DNA of 64,000 bases. It comes from Alcanivorax sp. Lineage in GTDB: Bacteria > Pseudomonadota > Gammaproteobacteria > Pseudomonadales > Alcanivoracaceae. A model generated the notes under the pieces. It ran no database searches. It saw nothing but the letters and a program-made list of their open reading frames with translations, and was not told the origin of the DNA. Below are positions 4,311 through 62,280 of the stretch, piece by piece. Within the stretch, counting starts at the first letter, position 1. Every line of letters starts with the position of its first letter. A program made the position numbers and the translations under genes. The DNA lies in contig NZ_NVWY01000013.1 in NCBI RefSeq assembly GCF_002733835.1, positions 1 through 64,000 of the forward strand, in the 5' to 3' direction.

Positions 4311-4322
4311 GGCAGTATAAGG

Positions 4323-4399
4323 GACGCTGGACGCCCGACGCCAGACGCAGGATGCGAAAAGCCGGTGTCAGGCATTTGGCGTCTTGCGTCAGGCGTGGT
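4323..4399. repeat. Heptad inverted-repeat element A
   Basis: Eleven consecutive 7-bp units fill the space between uvrA and the CsgD-like gene. The first five read gacgctg, gacgccc, gacgcca, gacgcag, gatgcga. After one spacer unit (aaagccg) the motif returns on the other strand as gtgtcag, gcatttg, gcgtctt, gcgtcag, gcgtggt. The arms are reverse complements with mismatches at the variable unit ends, giving a long imperfect hairpin. The right end reaches the stop codon of the CsgD-like gene. Confidence 0.85.
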
Positions 4400-11227: not shown

Positions 11228-11276
11228 ACGTCTGAAGTCAGGCGTCAGACTTCTGACGTTCGACCTTCGACCAGAT
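11228..11276. repeat. Heptad repeat element B
   Basis: Seven 7-bp units in register: acgtctg, aagtcag, gcgtcag, acttctg, acgttcg, accttcg, accagat. Part is also an inverted repeat (GTCTGAAGTC at 11230-11239 with GACTTCTGAC at 11248-11257). It lies between the gspD terminator and the 3' end of the convergent lipoprotein gene. It is shorter and less symmetrical than the other elements. Confidence 0.65.
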
Positions 11277-15687: not shown

Positions 15688-15826
15688 GGAGGCTGGATGC
15701 CTGACGCTGGACGCATAACGAGAAAAAATTAAACGAAAACCGGGTTGAGCCGGTTTTTCCTTAGGCTTTAATTTTTGGCGTCAGGCGTCAGGCGTCAGGC
15801 GTCAGGCGTCAGGCGTCAGGCGTCAA
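15688..15826. repeat. Heptad inverted-repeat element C with perfect tandem array
   Basis: The left arm has units ggaggct, ggatgcc, tgacgct, ggacgca, taacgag (15688-15722). The right arm is six perfect GCGTCAG copies plus one GCGTCAA (15778-15826), ending one base before the stop codon of the acyl reductase. The arms are reverse complementary in their core (GACGC/GCGTC). An A/T-flanked terminator hairpin lies between them. Confidence 0.9.
15736..15758. terminator. Bidirectional terminator inside element C
   Basis: AAAACCGG-GTTGAG-CCGGTTTTT, extended by outer AAAATTAAA/TTTAATTTT pairing (about 15724-15777). It can terminate the acyl reductase transcript on the minus strand and read-through on the plus strand. 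Confidence 0.85.
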
Positions 15827-31773: not shown

Positions 31774-31922
31774 ACTCGCTGTGAGCTGTAACGCGGGGTT
31801 ATGCTGCTCTAATAGTGCTGGCCTTTAGCGCCGCGTGGCAAGTGTTGGAGCGCGACGACTGCTGTTTTCGTTAACCTCAAACATGTGTCGCGTTGTAGCT
31901 TGAGGCTTGCAGCTTGTTGCTG
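31774..31922. repeat. Heptad inverted-repeat element D
   Basis: The left arm is actcgct, gtgagct, gtaacgc (31774-31794). The right arm is gtagctt, gaggctt, gcagctt, gttgctg (31895-31922) and ends one base before the stop codon of the SelW-like pseudogene. The arms are reverse complements at most core bases (GCT, GAGCT, AACG). The roughly 100-bp core has no clear hairpin. Confidence 0.75.
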
Positions 31923-36248: not shown

Positions 36249-36319
36249 CGCATTGTTGTGTCTGGCGAGTTGAGTGGCAGGAAATGCCAGATGTTCGGAC
36301 CCGATGGTAAGGAGTGAGC

Positions 36320-37450
36320 GTGGCAGATCGCCAGCGTTGGGTAATCAAGATAGGCAGTGCCCTGCTGACCAATGACGGCAAAGGGCTGGACTGTGCGCTC
36401 ATGCAAACCTGGGTGGACCGCATGGTGGCCCTGCGTGAGCGTGGCATTGAAGTGGTTATTGTCTCGTCCGGGGCGGTGGCCGAAGGCATGACCAGGCTGG
36501 GCTGGTCGGTGCGCCCGGATTCCGTGCATGAGCTGCAGGCCGCCGCCGCCGTGGGGCAGATGGGGCTGGTGCAGGCCTGGGAGACCCGCTTTCAGCAGCA
36601 TCAGTTGCATACTGCCCAGGTCCTGCTCACCCACGACGATCTGTCTGATCGCAAACGCTATCTCAATGCCCGTTCTACCTTGCTGACCCTGCTGGGGTTC
36701 GGTGTGGTGCCGGTGGTGAATGAGAACGATACCGTGGTCACCGACGAAATCCGTTTTGGGGATAACGATACCCTGGCGGCGCTGGTGGCGAATCTGGTAG
36801 AGGCGGACCGGCTGCTGATTCTCACGGATCAGGAAGGCCTGTTTGATGCGGATCCGCGCAACAATGCCGATGCCAACCTGATTCGCGAGGCCCGGGCCTC
36901 GGATCCGGCCATTGCCCGTGTCGCTGGCGGCGGCGGTTTATTGGGGCGCGGAGGTATGGCCACCAAGGTGCGGGCCGGCAAGTTGGCCGCTCGCTCGGGT
37001 GCGATTACCACTATTGCCTCCGGGCGTAGCCCGGAAGTGCTTATCGAGTTGGCGGATGGTCAGGGGCCGGGCACGACGTTGTTGCCGGATACCTCGCCGA
37101 TGAACGCCCGCAAGCAATGGCTGGCCGGGCATTTGCAGATGCGCGGGCGTCTGGTGCTGGACGCCGGGGCGGTGGCGCGTTTGCGTGATGGTGGTTCGAG
37201 CTTGCTGCCGGTGGGCGTGGTGGGTGTGTTTGGTCAGTTTTCCCGTGGCGAGATGGTGGCGTGTGAGGATGAGCAGGGCGAGGGGGTTGGCTGCGGCCTG
37301 GTGAATTACGATGCGGCGGATGCACGCCGGATTTGCCGCAAGAAGAGCGCCGAGATCGCTGAGGTGCTGGGCTTCATGAATGAGGAAGAGCTGATCCACC
37401 GGGATAATCTGGTGGTGTTTGACGCCGGAAGCCTGACGCCGGAGGCTTGA
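36320..37450 (+). CDS. proB: Glutamate 5-kinase
   Basis: This 376-residue enzyme phosphorylates glutamate in the first step of proline synthesis. It has the amino-acid kinase domain ([17 protein letters not shown] near the start, [41 protein letters not shown]) and a C-terminal PUA domain (from about 285). The start is a GTG. I prefer GTG 36320 because the AAGGAG Shine-Dalgarno (36309-36314) overlaps the other in-frame GTG at 36314. Heptad element E begins directly after the stop codon. Confidence 0.96.
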
Positions 37451-37528
37451 CGCGAAGAGCAAGTTTCGAGAAGCGAAAGGCAAGACCGGTTTGGATTTTC
37501 GAAACTCGCTTCTCGCAACTCGATACTG
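37451..37528. repeat. Heptad inverted-repeat element E
   Basis: The left arm, directly after the proB stop, holds units gaagagc, aagtttc, gagaagc, gaaaggc, aagaccg (37454-37488). The right arm holds gattttc, gaaactc, gcttctc, gcaactc, gatactg (37494-37528). Read in reverse complement the right arm gives GTTGCGAGAAGCGAGTTTCG, close to GTTTCGAGAAGCGA of the left arm. A terminator follows. Confidence 0.85.
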
Positions 37529-44155: not shown

Positions 44156-44618
44156 ATTACTGCGAGCAGGCCCGGATACCCGGATTACCCTGCATTTTGC
44201 TGTGCGCCTGATGGACGGCACGGACCTGGACTCCACCTTCGACGGTGAGCCCGCCTCTTTTGTGTGGGGGGATGAGTCCTTGCTGCCGGGCTTTGAAAAT
44301 GCCATTCGTGGTCTCAAGGCCGGTGATCGTCGCAGCGTTTTCCTGGAAGCGGCCAAGGCGTTCGGGGAGTACAACGAGCAGAATGTGCAGCATTTCACCC
44401 GCGACACCTTTGCCGAGCACGATTCCCTGGAGCCCGGCATGGTGCTGAGTTTCGCCGATGCGGCCGGTGCCGAGCTGCCAGGGGTGATCGCCAAGGCGGA
44501 TGATGAGTGGGTGATGGTGGACTTCAATCATCCGCTGGCAGGCCGGGATCTCACCTTTGAAGTGGAGATTATCGGTATCGAACGCTACGCCCCCGAGCAG
44601 CCTGTAACCCTCAATTGA
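44148..44618 (+). CDS. fkpB: FKBP-type peptidyl-prolyl isomerase (SlpA-like)
   Basis: The 156-residue protein starts with an FKBP half-domain (ITLHFAVRLMDGTDLDSTFDG, split here at about 14-34), followed by ESLLPGFENAIRGLKAGDRR (about 44-63). An IF (insert-in-flap) domain with VQHFTRDTFAEHDSLEPGM and the closing VDFNHPLAGRDLTFEVEI match SlpA/FkpB. It is a cytoplasmic proline isomerase and chaperone. Standard neighbour of lspA and ispH, though here separated from ispH by heptad element F. Confidence 0.95.
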   Translation: MTELLRAGPDTRITLHFAVRLMDGTDLDSTFDGEPASFVWGDESLLPGFENAIRGLKAGDRRSVFLEAAKAFGEYNEQNVQHFTRDTFAEHDSLEPGMVLSFADAAGAELPGVIAKADDEWVMVDFNHPLAGRDLTFEVEIIGIERYAPEQPVTLN

Positions 44619-44738
44619 CCGTTGACGGTGGACAGCCGCCGGTGAAGAGAGGAACGTTCATGGGTAGGTGTTCAAACAGCGGGCAGGAGGAATGTTTCTG
44701 GCTTTCCGCTGTCCATTATCCACAGTCAACGATCAGCT
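44619..44738. repeat. Heptad inverted-repeat element F
   Basis: After the fkpB stop, the left arm reads gttgacg, gtggaca, gccgccg, gtgaaga (44621-44648). The right arm reads ttccgct, gtccatt, atccaca, gtcaacg, atcagct (44704-44738). In reverse complement the right arm gives CGTTGACTGTGGAT and AATGGACAGCGG, close to the left arm. The core holds GGAACGTTCA, also present in element H. The right arm ends 5 nt before the ispH ATG. Confidence 0.85.
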
Positions 44739-44743
44739 GAATT

Positions 44744-45679
44744 ATGGAAATTCGTCTCGCTAATCCCCGTGGCTTCTGTGCTGGCGTGGATCGTGCCATC
44801 GACATCGTCAACCGCGCTCTGGAAGTGTTCGGGCCACCGATTCATGTCCGTCACGAAGTGGTGCATAACCGTTATGTGGTGGAAGACCTGCGTCAGCGCG
44901 GCGCGGTGTTTGTGGAAGAGCTACACGAAGTGCCGGACGACGCCATTGTCATTTTCAGCGCCCACGGCGTCTCCAAAGCGGTGCAGGAAGAGGCCGAGCG
45001 GCGTCAGCTGCAGGTTTTCGATGCCACCTGCCCGCTGGTCACCAAGGTGCATATGGAAGTCATTCGGTATGCCCGTGAAGGCCGTGAAAGCATCCTGATT
45101 GGCCATGCTGGCCATCCGGAAGTGGAAGGCACCATGGGCCAGTACGACAAATCCCATGGGGGGGACATTTATCTGGTGGAAGACGAGGCTGACGTGGCGA
45201 CCCTGACGGTGCGCAATGAAAGCAAACTGGCTTTCGTCACCCAGACCACCCTGAGTGTGGATGATACTGCCCGCGTCATTGATGCCCTGCGCCAGCGCTT
45301 TCCGGCGATTCTTGGCCCCAAACGCGAAGATATCTGCTACGCCACCACCAACCGCCAGGATGCCGTACGCCAGCTGGCGCTGGAGTGTGGTCTGGTGCTG
45401 GTGGTCGGCTCGGTAAACAGCTCCAACTCCAACCGGCTGCGCGAGCTGGCCGAACGCTGCGGTGCCGATGCCTACCTGATTGACGAGCCATCGCAGATTG
45501 ATGCGGACTGGTTGAAAGGCAAAGCCGCTGTTGGTGTCACCGCCGGCGCCAGCGCCCCTGAGGATCTGGTACAGCAGGTCGTTGCTACACTCAAGAGCCT
45601 GGGAGGCAAAGACGCCGAAGAAATCCCCGGCCGTGAAGAAAATATCCGCTTCTCCATGCCCAAGGCGCTACGTCCGTAG
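44744..45679 (+). CDS. ispH: 4-hydroxy-3-methylbut-2-enyl diphosphate reductase
   Basis: The 311-residue iron-sulfur enzyme catalyses the last MEP-pathway step, giving IPP and DMAPP. The three cluster cysteines lie in [11 protein letters not shown] (Cys 12), [11 protein letters not shown] (near 96) and [10 protein letters not shown] (near 197), and the substrate-binding [12 protein letters not shown] and AGASAPE are present. Heptad element F reaches to 5 nt before the ATG, and I see no good Shine-Dalgarno there, unusual for an essential gene. It feeds isoprenoids to ispB-type reactions. Confidence 0.97.
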
Positions 45680-57072: not shown

Positions 57073-57340
57073 AGAACCTGCTTGGGGTCTATACGCAGCC
57101 GCGTTGCCGCTGAAAATGGCGCCAGGCAAGGCGTAAACTGCAGGGCCTGACGGGTCAAGTTCAAGGTTTACAACACAGCATGGCGCCATTTGCAGCGGCA
57201 ACCCGAAGGGCCGGGGCCCTTTTGCCGCCAGCCCGCGATTGCTCTTGCTTATGTAGAATGACTACACATCACAATCGCAATCACGACCTGGCGAAAAAAT
57301 TACCGCCGGCGCGGCTGCGTATAGACCCCAAGCAGGTTCT
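57073..57340. repeat. Composite inverted-repeat element upstream of nadE
   Basis: A perfect 31-bp inverted repeat (57073-57103 with 57310-57340; outer end AGAACCTGCTTGGGGTCTAT) encloses a second one of 21 bp with one mismatch (57104-57124 with 57181-57201; TTGCCGCTGAAAATGGCGCC). On the left the two arms touch; on the right they are separated by 108 bp that contain nested palindromes (GCGATTG...CAATCGC around TGTAG-AATGA-CTACA). It looks like a non-coding mobile repeat with a later insertion. No clear target duplication is seen. Confidence 0.8.
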
Positions 57341-57383
57341 AAAGAGTACAATCAGCGCTCACTTGAGGAAAGGCCGGTTGATC

Positions 57384-59009
57384 ATGCGAATTATTATGGC
57401 CCAGCAGAATGCGCTGGTGGGCGATATCGAAGGGAATGCCCAGCGCGTTATTGCCGCGGCAGACGAAGCTCGCCGATTGCTGGGAGCGGACCTTGTGCTG
57501 TTCCCGGAGCTGATGCTCACCGGTTACCCGCCGGAAGACCTGTTGCTGCGGCCCAGCCTGAATAGCCGGGTCGATGCGGCGCTGGCCGACATTGGCGCGG
57601 CGATTTCGGTGCCGGTGGTGTTGGGCTATCCGGCGGTACGCAACGGGCACCGCCGTAATGCGGCTGGAGTGGTGTTCCCGGGGGAGTCTGGTCCTCGCCA
57701 TGAGTATTTCAAGCAGCACTTGCCCAATTACCGGGTATTTGACGAAAAACGCTATTTCCAGCCGGGCACCGATGCCTGCACCTTTGATATCGATGGCTGG
57801 ACGTTGGGTATCACCATTTGTGAAGACATCTGGCACGATGGCCCGGCGGCCCAGTTACAGCAGGCGGGTACCGACCTGATCCTGAACTTGAATGCCTCCC
57901 CTTACCGCACCAACAAGGCCGAGGAACGTTTTGCCCAGGTACAAGCCCGCAGCCGGGAAACCGGATTGCCGGTGCTGTATTGCAACCTTGTTGGTGGGCA
58001 GGATGAGTTGGTGTTTGATGGTGCCTCGTTTGTCTGTGATAGCAAGGGCGCGCGCTGCGTGCAGGCGGCCAGCTTTTCCGAAGCACTGGTGCCCGTGGAT
58101 GTGCAGTGCCAGAGCGGGCACTGCGAGCCGTGTGGCGAGGCGTTGCCGTTACCCGGGCCGGAGGAGGGCATGTACCAGGCGCTGGTGTTGGCGACCCGCG
58201 ATTATGTGAACAAGAATGGTTTCAAAGGCGCGTTATTGGGGCTGTCCGGTGGTATTGATTCCGCCCTGACGCTGGCGGTGGCGGTGGATGCCCTGGGCCC
58301 GGAACGGGTAGAGGCGGTGATGATGCCGTTCCAGTATACCTCTGCCATGAGCCTGGAAGATGCTGAAAAGCAGGCGCGCACCTTGCGGGTTCATTATCGG
58401 GTGTTGCCCATCGAGGCCGCGTTCAATGGCTTTATGGATATCCTCAGTGAGTCGTTTGCCGGCACGGCCCGGGATACCACCGAAGAAAACCTCCAGGCCC
58501 GTTGTCGGGGCGTGCTGTTGATGGCGCTTTCCAACAAGAACGGCTCGGTGGTGCTCACCACCGGTAACAAGAGCGAAATGGCGGTGGGCTACGCCACCCT
58601 CTATGGCGATATGGCCGGGGGCTTCTCGGTATTGAAAGACGTCTTCAAAACCTCCGTGTTCAATCTGTGCCGCTGGCGCAATCAGCAGGCGGGGGCCGAA
58701 ATCATCCCGGACCGGGTAATCACGCGCCCGCCGTCTGCCGAGCTGGCCCCGGACCAGGTGGACAGTGATTCGCTGCCCGATTACGACGAGCTGGATGCGA
58801 TTCTGGAGCGTTACGTGGAGCAGGACATGAGCGCGGAAGCGGTGATCCGTGACGGTTTTGACCGCGAGACGGTCTACCGGGTGGTGAAACTTACCGATCG
58901 TAATGAGTACAAACGCCGCCAGGCCGCTGTTGGCCCCCGTGTTAGCCGTCGTGCTTTCGGCAAGGATCGGCGGTATCCCATCACCAATGGGTGGCGGCCG
59001 GGAGACTAA
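57384..59009 (+). CDS. nadE: Glutamine-dependent NAD+ synthetase
   Basis: The 541-residue enzyme forms NAD from deamido-NAD and ATP using glutamine ammonia. The N-terminal nitrilase domain has Glu in LVLFPELMLTGYPPEDLL, Lys in YFKQHLPNY and Cys in LGITICEDIWHDG; the C-terminal synthetase has the ATP P-loop LLGLSGGIDSALTLAVA. I chose ATG 57384 (MRIIMAQQNA) with an AGGAAAGG Shine-Dalgarno; the open frame extends upstream into the inverted repeat. A heptad-repeat arm with terminator follows directly. Confidence 0.95.
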   Translation: MRIIMAQQNALVGDIEGNAQRVIAAADEARRLLGADLVLFPELMLTGYPPEDLLLRPSLNSRVDAALADIGAAISVPVVLGYPAVRNGHRRNAAGVVFPGESGPRHEYFKQHLPNYRVFDEKRYFQPGTDACTFDIDGWTLGITICEDIWHDGPAAQLQQAGTDLILNLNASPYRTNKAEERFAQVQARSRETGLPVLYCNLVGGQDELVFDGASFVCDSKGARCVQAASFSEALVPVDVQCQSGHCEPCGEALPLPGPEEGMYQALVLATRDYVNKNGFKGALLGLSGGIDSALTLAVAVDALGPERVEAVMMPFQYTSAMSLEDAEKQARTLRVHYRVLPIEAAFNGFMDILSESFAGTARDTTEENLQARCRGVLLMALSNKNGSVVLTTGNKSEMAVGYATLYGDMAGGFSVLKDVFKTSVFNLCRWRNQQAGAEIIPDRVITRPPSAELAPDQVDSDSLPDYDELDAILERYVEQDMSAEAVIRDGFDRETVYRVVKLTDRNEYKRRQAAVGPRVSRRAFGKDRRYPITNGWRPGD

Positions 59010-59010
59010 A

Positions 59011-59140
59011 AGCAGCTACGAGCTCCTGGCTGCGAGCTGCAAGGAAGATCAAAATCAAAAAAGGGTGGCCCGAATCATGGTCGGTGCCACCCTTTTTTAG
59101 CTAGAAGCTAGAAGCTAGAAGCTAGAAGCTAGAAGCTCAC
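59011..59140. repeat. Heptad inverted-repeat element G with terminator core
   Basis: One base after the nadE stop the left arm reads agcagct, acgagct, cctggct, gcgagct, gcaagga (59011-59045). The right arm is five perfect AGCTAGA units plus AGCTCAC (59099-59140) that includes the stop codon of the convergent bamD. AGCT is self-complementary, so the two arms pair across a terminator hairpin (59057-59098). Confidence 0.9.
59057..59098. terminator. Bidirectional terminator between nadE and bamD
   Basis: AAAAAAGGGTGGC (59057-59069) pairs with GCCACCCTTTTTT (59086-59098). It is the core of heptad element G. Confidence 0.9.
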
Positions 59141-59955
59141 AGAAGGTCAAACGTCAGCAGGCTCAACAGCCCTTCATCCTCATCCGGCCACCAGGCCAGG
59201 TCCACCTGTTTGTCGTCATCCAGGAAGCTGCTTTCCGGCCAGTTCAGGGCCAGTACGGCGCGGCTTTTTTCTGCCTGTTCAGGAAGCTCCAGCCGTTGAT
59301 AACCCTTGACCATAATGGCCAGGCCTTCTTCCACAGCGGGGGTCTGCTGGTAGTGTTTGACCACATACTGCGCCCGGTTCACGGAAGCAACGATGGCGCC
59401 ACGGCGAGCGTAGTAACGGGCTACGTGCAGTTCCTGGCGGGCCAGCTGGTTGCGGATGTGGACCATGCGAGCGCGGGCGTCGGGGGCGTACTCGCTGTCC
59501 GGGAAGCGGGCAACCAGCCGCTCGAAGTCGCGGAAGGAGTCTTTCGCGGCGTCCATATCCTTGCTGGAGCGGTCGGAGGTGACCATGTTGTCAAACAGGC
59601 CTTTCTCCATGTTGAAGTTGGCCAGCCCGCGCATGTAGAGGGCATAGTCCATGCGTGGATGCGCGGGATAGTTGCGCATGAAGCGTTGCGCCGCTACCAC
59701 GGTGGCCGGGTAATCCACGGACTTGTACTGGGCGTAGATCAGGTCCAGCGCAGACTGTTCGGCATAGTCCCCATACGGAAAGCGCGCCTCCAGCTCCTTG
59801 AGCTGGTCGATGGCCGTCAGGTAGTTTTTCGATTCAATGGACTCGCTGGCCTCCCGATATTGATCGGCCTCGGTAAGTTCCGGGCGATCTTCCGGGTTGC
59901 CGGCGCAGCCGGCCAGAATCAGTACACACAGTAGTGGCCATAAAAGTCGTGGCAT
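59137..59955 (-). CDS. bamD: Outer membrane assembly lipoprotein BamD
   Basis: The 272-residue lipoprotein (also called ComL/YfiO) has lipobox LAGC with lipidated Cys 16, followed by TPR-like helical repeats (YREASESIESKNYLTAIDQL, FPYGDYAEQSALDLIYAQY and RYYARRGAIVASVNRAQ). It is a core part of the BAM complex that folds beta-barrel proteins such as the one at 25413. Size fits BamD (E. coli 245 aa). It is divergent from rluD, as in pseudomonads. Confidence 0.95.
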   Translation of the reverse strand: MPRLLWPLLCVLILAGCAGNPEDRPELTEADQYREASESIESKNYLTAIDQLKELEARFPYGDYAEQSALDLIYAQYKSVDYPATVVAAQRFMRNYPAHPRMDYALYMRGLANFNMEKGLFDNMVTSDRSSKDMDAAKDSFRDFERLVARFPDSEYAPDARARMVHIRNQLARQELHVARYYARRGAIVASVNRAQYVVKHYQQTPAVEEGLAIMVKGYQRLELPEQAEKSRAVLALNWPESSFLDDDKQVDLAWWPDEDEGLLSLLTFDLL

Positions 59956-60998: not shown

Positions 60999-61369
60999 TA
61001 AGAGGTGAAGGGTATGGGGTTGCTGATGGCCGGCTGCGCTAGGGAGCCTTTGAGGAATTCCCTGCGTACTCAGCGTGCGCGGTAAGTTACCACGCGGAAA
61101 AAGGAACAGACTGGGCGGTGCTGGATGGCTATCTGCAGCGCCGTTGTGAGACGCTACTGGGCCAGCAAGCCGCTTCGGTGACGGATATCACCCACCGAAT
61201 CCACGGCAATGTGGCCCCAGTCAGACATGGCGACCAGTGCGCCAGTGCGAACCGGAGGCGATGCCATGGGTGGAAACTTAAGTTCTCCCTGCCTGTCTCA
61301 GCACGGAGTGCTGTTCAAGTTGCGTGTGGCGGAAGGGGTGTGTTCCCCCGACTGACCAAGGAGCCAGCA
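60999..61369 (+). other. 371-bp region between rluD and pgeF: short ORF and small stems
   Basis: No recognised gene. It has a GCGGTAA...TTACCACGC stem near 61080-61096 and a 29-codon ORF at 61266-61355 described separately. The upstream open frame joined to pgeF has no convincing start. I see no heptad array or terminator here. Confidence 0.5.
61266..61355 (+). CDS. Possible 29-residue small protein upstream of pgeF
   Basis: ATG 61266 has a perfect GGAGG Shine-Dalgarno with 7-nt spacing. The peptide is MGGNLSSPCLSQHGVLFKLR plus nine residues ending CSPD. Its stop codon falls 14 nt before the pgeF ATG and just before the pgeF Shine-Dalgarno, the position of a leader peptide. It is too short to judge by composition and I recognise no homologue. 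Confidence 0.35.
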   Translation: MGGNLSSPCLSQHGVLFKLRVAEGVCSPD

Positions 61370-62122
61370 ATGTCACTGCCTGACAAGAGCCAATGGCTAT
61401 GCCCGGACTGGAATCCACACCCGGCCGTGCGGGTGTGCGTGACGACCCGTGCCGGTGATCATTGCCCCAAGCCCTGGCACGGGTTCAATCTGGGGTTGAA
61501 CTGCGGTGACCAGCCGGCGCGGGTCGAGCAGGCCCGTCATCATGTGGAAAAACTGCTGCAGGCGGATCACCCCGCCGCCTGGTTGTGGCAGGTCCACGGC
61601 AAGCAAGTGATACGCGCCGATGCCCAGGATAACGAAGCCGATGGGGTTTGGACTGACCAGCAACGCTGGCCCTGTGTGGTGCTGACCGCTGATTGTCTAC
61701 CGGTGTTGCTGGCCCGCACTGATGGAGCGGCTGTTGCGGCGGTCCATGCCGGTTGGCGGGGTTTGCAGGCCGGTATTATTGCCGAAGGCGTGGCCAGTAT
61801 TGCACCCAACGGTGAGGCCGTCAGCGCCTGGCTGGGTCCGGCCATTTGTGGGCAGTGCTACCAGGTGGGGGATGAGGTCTACCGTGCCTTTACCGAGAAT
61901 CGGCCTGCGTTCAAGCCTGCTTTCCAGAAAGATGCTTCCCCCGGCCACTGGCGATTCTCGGTGGCTCATGCCGCCATCATCGAGCTGGCCCAGCTCGGCG
62001 TCGATGATGTCCATGGTGGGGATCTCTGCACGGCCTGTGACCTGTCCCGTTTTTATTCCTATCGCAAGGAAGGCGAGACCGGGCGTTTTGCGTCGCTGAT
62101 CTGGCTGGACGGGGATAATTAA
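61370..62122 (+). CDS. pgeF: Purine nucleoside phosphorylase/laccase-like protein PgeF (YfiH)
   Basis: The 250-residue protein matches the Cu-oxidase_4/YfiH family: VTTRAGDHCPKPWHGFNLGL (about 20-39), WLWQVHGKQV (about 67-76), CVVLTADCLPVLL (about 104-116), AVHAGWRGLQAG (about 124-135), and the zinc-type Cys in CTACDLSRFYSYR (about 222-234). Relatives are described as purine nucleoside phosphorylases and peptidoglycan editing factors that remove wrong amino acids. ATG 61370 has an AAGGAG Shine-Dalgarno. Element H begins directly after its stop. Confidence 0.93.
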   Translation: MSLPDKSQWLCPDWNPHPAVRVCVTTRAGDHCPKPWHGFNLGLNCGDQPARVEQARHHVEKLLQADHPAAWLWQVHGKQVIRADAQDNEADGVWTDQQRWPCVVLTADCLPVLLARTDGAAVAAVHAGWRGLQAGIIAEGVASIAPNGEAVSAWLGPAICGQCYQVGDEVYRAFTENRPAFKPAFQKDASPGHWRFSVAHAAIIELAQLGVDDVHGGDLCTACDLSRFYSYRKEGETGRFASLIWLDGDN

Positions 62123-62275
62123 TAGTTAATAATGAATAAGTAATAGCTGCGCGTTCAGCGCTGTTGGAACGTTCAAACAATGAGGCCGCGCCCAAGCTCT
62201 GGGCGCGGCCCCCTGCATTTAAGATCAATCTAAAACTCTGTCGCGCTTTATTAATTATTCATTATTAACGATTAA
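62123..62275. repeat. Heptad inverted-repeat element H
   Basis: Directly after the pgeF stop the left arm reads tagttaa, taatgaa, taagtaa, tagctgc (62123-62150). The right arm (62247-62275) is its reverse complement: read backwards it gives TAATCGT, TAATAAT, GAATAAT, TAATAAA. The core has a perfect 10-bp hairpin GGCCGCGCCC/GGGCGCGGCC (62184-62210) and the GGAACGTTCA motif shared with element F. The right arm ends 6 bp before the clpB heat-shock promoter. Confidence 0.88.
62184..62210 (+). terminator. GC-rich hairpin in element H, possible terminator
   Basis: GGCCGCGCCC-AAGCTCT-GGGCGCGGCC is followed by CCCTGCATTT, so the T-run is weak. It sits about 60 nt past the pgeF stop and likely ends that transcript. 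Confidence 0.55.
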
Positions 62276-62280
62276 CTGCT

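Follow-up and report, generated by a model that had tools for sequence, protein, structure and literature searches.

Heptad arrays in the window

The intergenic element at positions 59011–59140 of the window, by which we mean the whole 64,000-nucleotide (64-kb) stretch of DNA analysed from the marine bacterium Alcanivorax, lies where two convergent ORFs end and fills the gap from one stop codon to the other. AGCT-type heptads flank a strong hairpin with a T run, as the first-pass annotation had described. The left arm begins 4 nt past the stop of ORF 57180–59009, the right arm abuts the stop codon of the minus-strand ORF 59137–59955, and the core has a folding energy of −25.0 kcal/mol.

59014–59043, plus strand: left arm, four AGCTNNN heptads (AGCTACG AGCTCCT GGCTGCG AGCTGCA)
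59057–59098, unstranded: core hairpin AAAAAAGGGTGGC..GCCACCCTTTTTT, bidirectional terminator-like, T run at end
59099–59136, minus strand: right arm, AGCTAGA x 5.6, TRF score 78

Judging from its hairpin and T run, the core at 59011 is a putative terminator, unlike most cores. Eight arrays of this kind had been listed for the window. In the scan described below, five of them (4322–4398, 15699–15825, 37458–37527, 59014–59118 and 62119–62276) were recovered from the window's own DNA as lag-7 arrays accompanied by an inverted partner, but 44619–44738 fell under the array threshold, 31774–31922 was weak and 11230–11272 was unpaired. Among named relatives, Alcanivorax sp. DG881 is the closest in the comparison (97% for one protein), and the loci other than 59011 are as follows.

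4322–4398, unstranded: GACGCNN element, core 22 nt; DG881 match 89/91 bases
11230–11272, unstranded: heptad array without inverted partner (rank 7 among 20 controls)
15699–15825, unstranded: GACGCNN element around an ACCGG..CCGGT hairpin, from the scan
31774–31922, unstranded: degenerate element, weak in own DNA
37458–37527, unstranded: CGAGTT/GAGAAGC element, core 11 nt, from the scan; same orientation in DG881
44610–44738, unstranded: TTGACNG element upstream of ORF 44744–45679, paired arms readable
62119–62276, unstranded: TTAATAN element, 108-nt core with GGCCGCGCCC..GGGCGCGGCC hairpin; aligns inverted relative to DG881

The DG881 ortholog of the element at 44610–44738 was detected by the scan that misses the own copy, and the orthologs of 31774–31922 in three other species (G004, G007 and G012) have clear arms and CGCG borders. 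The element at 62119–62276 sits between ORF 61118–62122 and a gene that we take to be clpB. At 37420–37453, a period-14 repeat at the extreme end of ORF 36314–37450 continues into the neighbouring heptad element; the end of this ORF differs in more distant species.

Period 7 in intergenic DNA

The genome (G000) comprises 3,596,023 bp in 64 contigs, and 840,256 bases (23%) were sampled. Gene borders were drawn by a crude ORF rule, with no annotation, which gave an intergenic set of 475 regions of at least 40 bp (91,808 bases); segments matching themselves at a given lag were then counted at a threshold of 11. This 840-kb sample yielded 73 intergenic segments at lag 7, compared with 0.3 in shuffled sequences. 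Lags 4, 5, 6, 8 and 10 gave no segments, lags 9, 11, 12 and 13 gave 2, 1, 6 and 2, respectively, and lags 14, 21 and 28 carry harmonics of lag 7 (31, 14 and 9 segments). A 458-kb sample contains 32 intergenic segments of period 7, with lags 4, 5, 6, 8 and 10 empty, and at a stricter threshold 3 lag-7 segments in 410 kb of coding DNA (where lag 18 gave 7) compare with 18 in 49 kb of intergenic DNA. The lag-7 observation made in the window is real and strong, although the densities of elements given here may be slightly high because the sampled contigs came from a list of AGCT-array matches.

Intergenic DNA of DG881 contains 24 arrays at lag 7, 1 at lag 6 and 6 at lag 12, and G004, G007 and G012 together contain 21 lag-7 arrays. 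A further close relative, G001, is a single contig of 3,120,143 bp without a Y1 transposase match, and heptad elements are nearly absent from it (1 lag-7 array and 1 element in 150 kb). Among the loci of the first scan, the lag-7 excess is clear in Alcanivorax (19), whereas Alloalcanivorax shows a small one (4, the same number as at lag 12); in the remaining groups the excess is not specific to lag 7. The stretches read from other genera of the order contain 3 (G236), 4 (G142) and 0 (G019) lag-7 arrays, with 0–3 at non-harmonic lags, and, given these low numbers, the strong excess is so far a property of Alcanivorax. The first-pass impression of similar arrays in other gammaproteobacteria is borne out by the pattern AGCTNNNx4, which 57 of 390 genomes from the order contain; the AGCTNNN pattern occurs in 26 of 46 genomes of the family, with 1 to 583 matches per genome within the genus. 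The control pattern TCGANNN x 4, the same motif read backwards, gave 338 matches in G005 and 116 in G007, so that these two genomes probably harbor a further palindromic heptad family, TCGANNN.

Inverted arms and inward polarity

A partner of the same unit in opposite orientation was sought within 230 bp of each of 91 arrays, found at a looser threshold, with array-free intergenic regions as the null. The inverted partner exceeded the 99% null level for 69 of the 91 arrays and the null maximum for 56; in the first sample, 26 of 32 arrays had an inverted partner and 13 of 32 a direct one. Elements are about 60–250 bp long, with arms mostly of 3–8 degenerate heptads each around a core, and the spacing between arms is bimodal (8–69 and 87–127 nt, plus one at 189). 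The sampled 23% of the genome holds 50 distinct elements, so that about one in nine or ten of the 475 intergenic regions carries one and, if the sampled contigs are typical, the genome has about 200. Genes flanking these 50 are in tandem in 32 cases, convergent in 8, divergent in 8 and unknown in 2, compared with 210, 79, 105 and 35 for all regions of at least 60 bp, which amounts to only a mild lean of elements towards tandem genes.

Plain polymerase slippage would make these ordinary heptanucleotide repeats, whose inverted partners would be products of chance or of fold-back duplication. Some arrays are indeed perfect over 5 to 10 units, and an excess of heptamers in bacteria is already in print, in the available text of PMC4692102; the share of arrays with inverted partners, however, is hard to reconcile with this account.

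Of 82 elements in the six non-palindromic families, 80 have a left arm with the unit pointing inward, none has it pointing outward and 2 are ambiguous. As the families were defined by inward reading, the real test of polarity is whether any family is the reverse complement of another, and none is. The order of units agrees slightly between arms, with a mean identity of 0.794 versus 0.768 after permutation (92 elements, 62 above and 30 below; Wilcoxon p 8e-5); the effect is small and the elements are not all independent.

Unit families and a dispersed AGTTNAA element

Counting orthologs, 99 elements were assembled from 15 sources, and 95 of these fall in eight recurring unit families, whose patterns were written down after the elements had been seen.

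AGTTNAA: n = 20, median core 101.5 nt
TTAATAN: n = 17, median core 101 nt
GACGCCN (GACGC): n = 15, median core 43 nt
CACGCNN: n = 12, median core 14.5 nt
CGAGTTN: n = 11, median core 35 nt
AGCTNNN: n = 10, median core 63.5 nt
TTGACAG: n = 7, median core 95 nt
GTCNGAC: n = 3, median core 34 nt

The earlier statement that no single consensus links the arrays holds in so far as there are several units and a search with one consensus would miss the class, but the units recur in families rather than differing freely from locus to locus. To a search with one consensus, the elements would look like short repeats without a relation to each other. Rfam at gathering score gave 0 matches in the window, L105, L115 and L155. 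Core length is largely a trait of the family, and each of the about eight families has its own. Alignments of half-elements show that the inner borders are family-specific as well, with CGAAAGGCAAAACC-like sequence in CGAGTT and AAGCGCG or ACGCG in AGTTNAA elements. Units common to whole families, with conserved inner borders and cores, again speak against slippage. Fixed polarity and family-specific core lengths are more than slippage would lead one to expect, and suggest descent or function.

Function of one particular kind would fit several of these traits. If the heptads of each family were bound cooperatively by a DNA-bending or nucleoid protein of its own, the arms looping a promoter or terminator between them, a single inward polarity in each family, a family-specific arm spacing and arms that flank unrelated cores would all follow, and the IHF/HU reading of paired repeats in Geobacter metallireducens provides a precedent (available text of PMC2700814). 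Against such a role, the close relative G001 lives nearly without elements, and further contrary observations come from the species comparison below.

A search with one AGTTNAA element returned three more long matches in the own genome and, besides the ortholog, four in DG881, all at 69–79% identity; the other matches span arms or parts only. The consensus runs from arms through AAGCGCG, ~30 variable bases, GCCCGCG..CGCGGG, ~30 variable bases and CCGCGTTT to arms again, and is drawn from an alignment of 40 sequences, several of which are one copy fetched twice and some of which come from other species. Because the two ends differ (AAGCGCG versus CCGCGTTT), a copy has a direction. The AGTTNAA family is thus a dispersed repeat of ~150 bp with an asymmetric consensus, and the joint alignment of arm and core shows common descent and dispersal, not slippage at each site independently. 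The arms in the alignment hardly vary, which leaves little covariation from which to read an RNA stem: among 16 pairs, one is changed on both sides in 7 sequences, and the same pair is broken in 8. The central hairpin is absent from the consensus structure predicted from this alignment. A composite array of about ten TAGCTTC and then about seven CGGCGTC units lies at L099:4162–4286 (own C1:64162–64286); DG881 has the TAGCTTC/CGGCGTC composite too, in fewer copies.

Orthologous slots differ between species

The slots of 19 own elements were located in DG881 by their flanks, and orientation was judged from alignments that include the arms. Alignment of orthologous intergenic regions between relatives had been suggested as a check on gain, loss and unit change, and it returned elements that are kept, inverted or replaced: 7 slots have the same orientation, 3 align better inverted and 9 hold something else in DG881.

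Same orientation in DG881: 4322, 37458, C1:64076, 104097, 138729, 139435, C6:38969
Inverted relative to DG881, 62119: 150/159 bases inverted versus 135/160 direct
Inverted relative to DG881, C1:184995: 197/231 inverted versus 133/174 direct
Inverted relative to DG881, C6:35861: 72/88 inverted versus 21/26 direct

The element at C6:35861 aligns inverted together with its arms, its first 31 bases being identical; this whole-element inversion could also stem from loss and reinsertion. Orientation is kept in 7 of the 10 elements with an orthologous core, which counts against the reading favoured in the Discussion. Inversion of any element, on the other hand, is not what slippage produces.

Seven of the nine non-matching slots hold, by eye, a different heptad-armed element in DG881; four of the seven DG881 occupants were also picked up by a script, and the other three, including 59011, are by-eye assignments. 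The DG881 occupant seems to come from another unit family at five slots (15699, 59014, C1:173445, C1:183492 and C6:43227, by eye) and from the same family, with a different core, at two (C1:83785 and C6:40054, by eye). The slot of 15699–15825 thus has a CACGC-type element in DG881, and at 59011 a GACGC element with a different hairpin faces the own AGCT element (both by eye). A further slot is occupied by a REP-type palindrome in the own genome, where DG881 has a CGAGTT element.

At the clpB slot, L012 is reversed (136 versus 74) relative to L002, L005, L009, L010, G012 and the reference G004, with L003 and L006 left out of the orientation comparison. The hairpin there is kept across several species while both arms change unit together; L007, L008 and G007 show no element, and G001 has the hairpin without arms. 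A joint difference of unit in both arms between species is seen by eye at 62123, 44619 and 31774. Such a change of unit in both arms at one locus, and the coexistence and swapping of several families within the same slot, sit poorly with a dedicated protein for each family.

Nine arm indels between the own genome and DG881 have lengths of 1, 2, 3, 7, 7, 8, 9, 10 and 70 nt; three of the nine are multiples of seven, and some may be alignment artefacts. Of the three mechanisms that the first-pass annotation had proposed (slippage, a rolling enzyme or a hairpin-binding protein), slippage fits part of the data, namely the indels of 7, 7 and 70 nt, but inverted, co-varying arms and inverted elements are unexplained by slippage alone.

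Candidate functions and movers

The suggestion that the core is often a terminator is sound at 59011 but does not carry over to the class: a GC hairpin with a T run was found in 3 of 51 own cores and in 27 of 358 controls, the detector being strict on GC and likely to have missed the hairpin at 15688. A terminator model for the whole class was accordingly set aside. Selection on fixed heptad positions fared no better. A first test (651 versus 484 ± 14) could count one variant unit twice, and with each variant counted once the figures are 326 versus 323.5 ± 11.6, or 250 versus 265 ± 11 without AGTTNAA arrays. Substitutions that are not focused on fixed unit positions weigh against protein-binding sites; variation spread in this way over the unit is what drift and homogenisation predict. 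Taken with the joint arm changes and the slot swapping, protein binding is a live rival that we consider quite unlikely.

The elements might alternatively be miniature mobile elements of a MITE- or REPIN-like kind, mobilised by a transposase with specificity for the hairpin or the heptad ends, with inversion and swapping as by-products. Terminal inverted repeats are present, as in the definition of a MITE (the paired arrays above), the AGTTNAA family is dispersed with common ancestry and two distinct ends, slot occupants vary between close species, and one element is inverted arms and all. The AGTTNAA end pattern is also restricted: of 381 genomes drawn from the order, 6 carry it, of which five are among the six that belong to the genus of the window and one is in the family. 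No autonomous copy was found in the sample, however. Among 17 solitary arrays, one (C14:44176) beat the control for a distant partner (18.0 versus a null maximum of 15.3), and the set gave no convincing distant partner of the kind that an autonomous parent element would have. Likewise, neither a target-site duplication nor a clean empty site with one was seen in the slots read.

REP and REPIN sequences are short, dispersed, intergenic palindromic elements with Y1 transposases and without heptads. The likeness to the present elements lies in the short dispersed intergenic palindromes; here, Y1 genes lie among GTAGGAGC-like palindromes, not heptads. Y1/REP-type transposase genes are present in 15 of 16 Alcanivorax genomes, and at least 11 of the 18 with flanks read lie among palindromes of the GTAGGAGC, GTGGGAGC or GTAGGTCG type (by eye). 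Heptad arrays lie within 330 bp of these 18 genes at one locus by scan (L279) and at one more by eye (L278), compared with about 0.7 neighbouring elements expected from overall density, which is an underestimate for intergenic flanks. Several genomes of the sister genus (g2), moreover, have Y1 genes without an AGCT array. Within the genus, the lack of Y1 genes in G001 matches its near-absence of heptad elements, a coincidence. Y1/REP transposases, the one candidate checked for the enzyme that had been proposed, are not as a rule beside the elements and are not supported as the mover. On balance, transposition is a live rival but, in our estimate, an unlikely one.

REP-type palindromes and heptad elements seem to be nested in each other: L278 has a CGAGTT element inside a GTAGGAGC palindrome pair, and own C1:184995 is an AGTT-type element with a REP-like pair in its core (both by eye). 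Separately, L154:16280–16550 (own C14) belongs to a dispersed repeat of ~265 bp, of which DG881 has at least 12 copies of nearly full length (74–92% identity); as far as seen, it has no relation to the heptad elements.

Comparison with known heptamer repeats

A close likeness is to the GGGAATC heptamers of Xanthomonas, described in the available text of PMC4692102 as intergenic, degenerate (GGGANTN)n arrays, most often of four units, with 70 close convergent pairs in Xcc and 75 in Xac. In related species the arrays mostly have the same neighbouring genes, but vary extensively in length and sequence (PMC4692102). The heptad elements here are likewise degenerate 7-nt intergenic arrays in convergent pairs. 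By contrast, that text treats one unit, read as a G-quadruplex former, whereas eight families occur here, and the part available describes neither several families nor inversion, joint change of the arms or swapping of slot occupants (PMC4692102). Unlike the quadruplex-capable GGGANTN, the eight unit consensus patterns all lack a GGG tract. The pattern GGGAATCx3 occurs in 0 of 274 genomes of the class, the Xanthomonas repeat being compared by description only.

Geobacter metallireducens belongs to another phylum. Its multicopy octamers GTTGCTYN, heptamers MTYCTGA and TCTCCGTS[Y] units are paired on opposite strands (available text of PMC2700814), and both several unit classes and opposite-strand pairing are seen here too. 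They differ in that the units are partly 8 nt and that sites for IHF/HU or another global regulator are only hypothesised; inversion and joint arm change are not described in the same text (PMC2700814). The TAACTGA repeats of Beggiatoaceae are multicopy and intergenic, with 169 direct sets and one indirect repeat in one genome (available text of PMC4679880), and tandem heptanucleotides of cyanobacteria are mentioned in that of PMC4692102; both share with the present elements the multicopy intergenic 7-nt array, but as far as these texts go they are direct repeats of a single unit, in contrast to the inverted arms and many units seen here. Since Xanthomonas and Geobacter already provide examples of heptamer arrays in pairs, the elements here are a variant and not a new kind. 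A literature search, with most subscription papers outside its range, returned no account of an organisation into several families, each with one polarity, together with inversion, joint change of the arms and swapping between slots, and nothing on repeats in Alcanivorax by title or abstract.

Discussion

We lean towards the view that the elements are dispersed, hairpin-forming intergenic repeats, the arms of which grow in 7-nt steps and are kept matched by copying from one arm to the other, a process that would also invert them. Inverted arms that are internally periodic could pair in several registers during replication, and arm length would then rise or fall by unit-sized steps. Pairing might take the form of a cruciform, or of a nascent strand switching from arm to arm, and would write the sequence of one arm into the other and at times flip the element, so that arms would be homogenised and elements inverted. 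Copies and swapped alleles would spread through recombination, transfer between lineages or a transposition activity. The copying, or template-switch, step is inferred; matched arms could equally be maintained by selection for pairing. Also against this view are the small size of the unit-order effect, the seven of ten orientations that are kept, the arm indels that are not multiples of seven, the fixed polarity and family-specific core lengths, and the lack of a clean empty site with target duplication in the slots read. Plain slippage, by comparison, fails as a full account and is very unlikely. The benefit of the elements to the cell is probably incidental and locus-specific, as with putative termination at 59011.

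A wider reading would take the elements as a class defined by design (inward heptad arms, an invertible core, both arms rewritten at once by an activity working in 7-nt steps, and cassettes exchanged among intergenic slots) and would place the same activity behind the heptamer pairs of Xanthomonas and Geobacter; we regard this as improbable. The abundance of heptamers has been suggested, as speculation, to mirror how long a piece of DNA the active site of the polymerase holds (PMC4692102, Discussion, in the text available). With the present elements, this printed remark on surplus bacterial heptamers becomes testable, as the question of what copies in sevens while keeping inverted arms alike. 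The elements would offer a natural system for hairpin-driven template switching and small inversions. They explain part of the intergenic difference between close Alcanivorax species, and represent a fast-evolving, little-described class of bacterial repeat that can flip and is swapped between close relatives.
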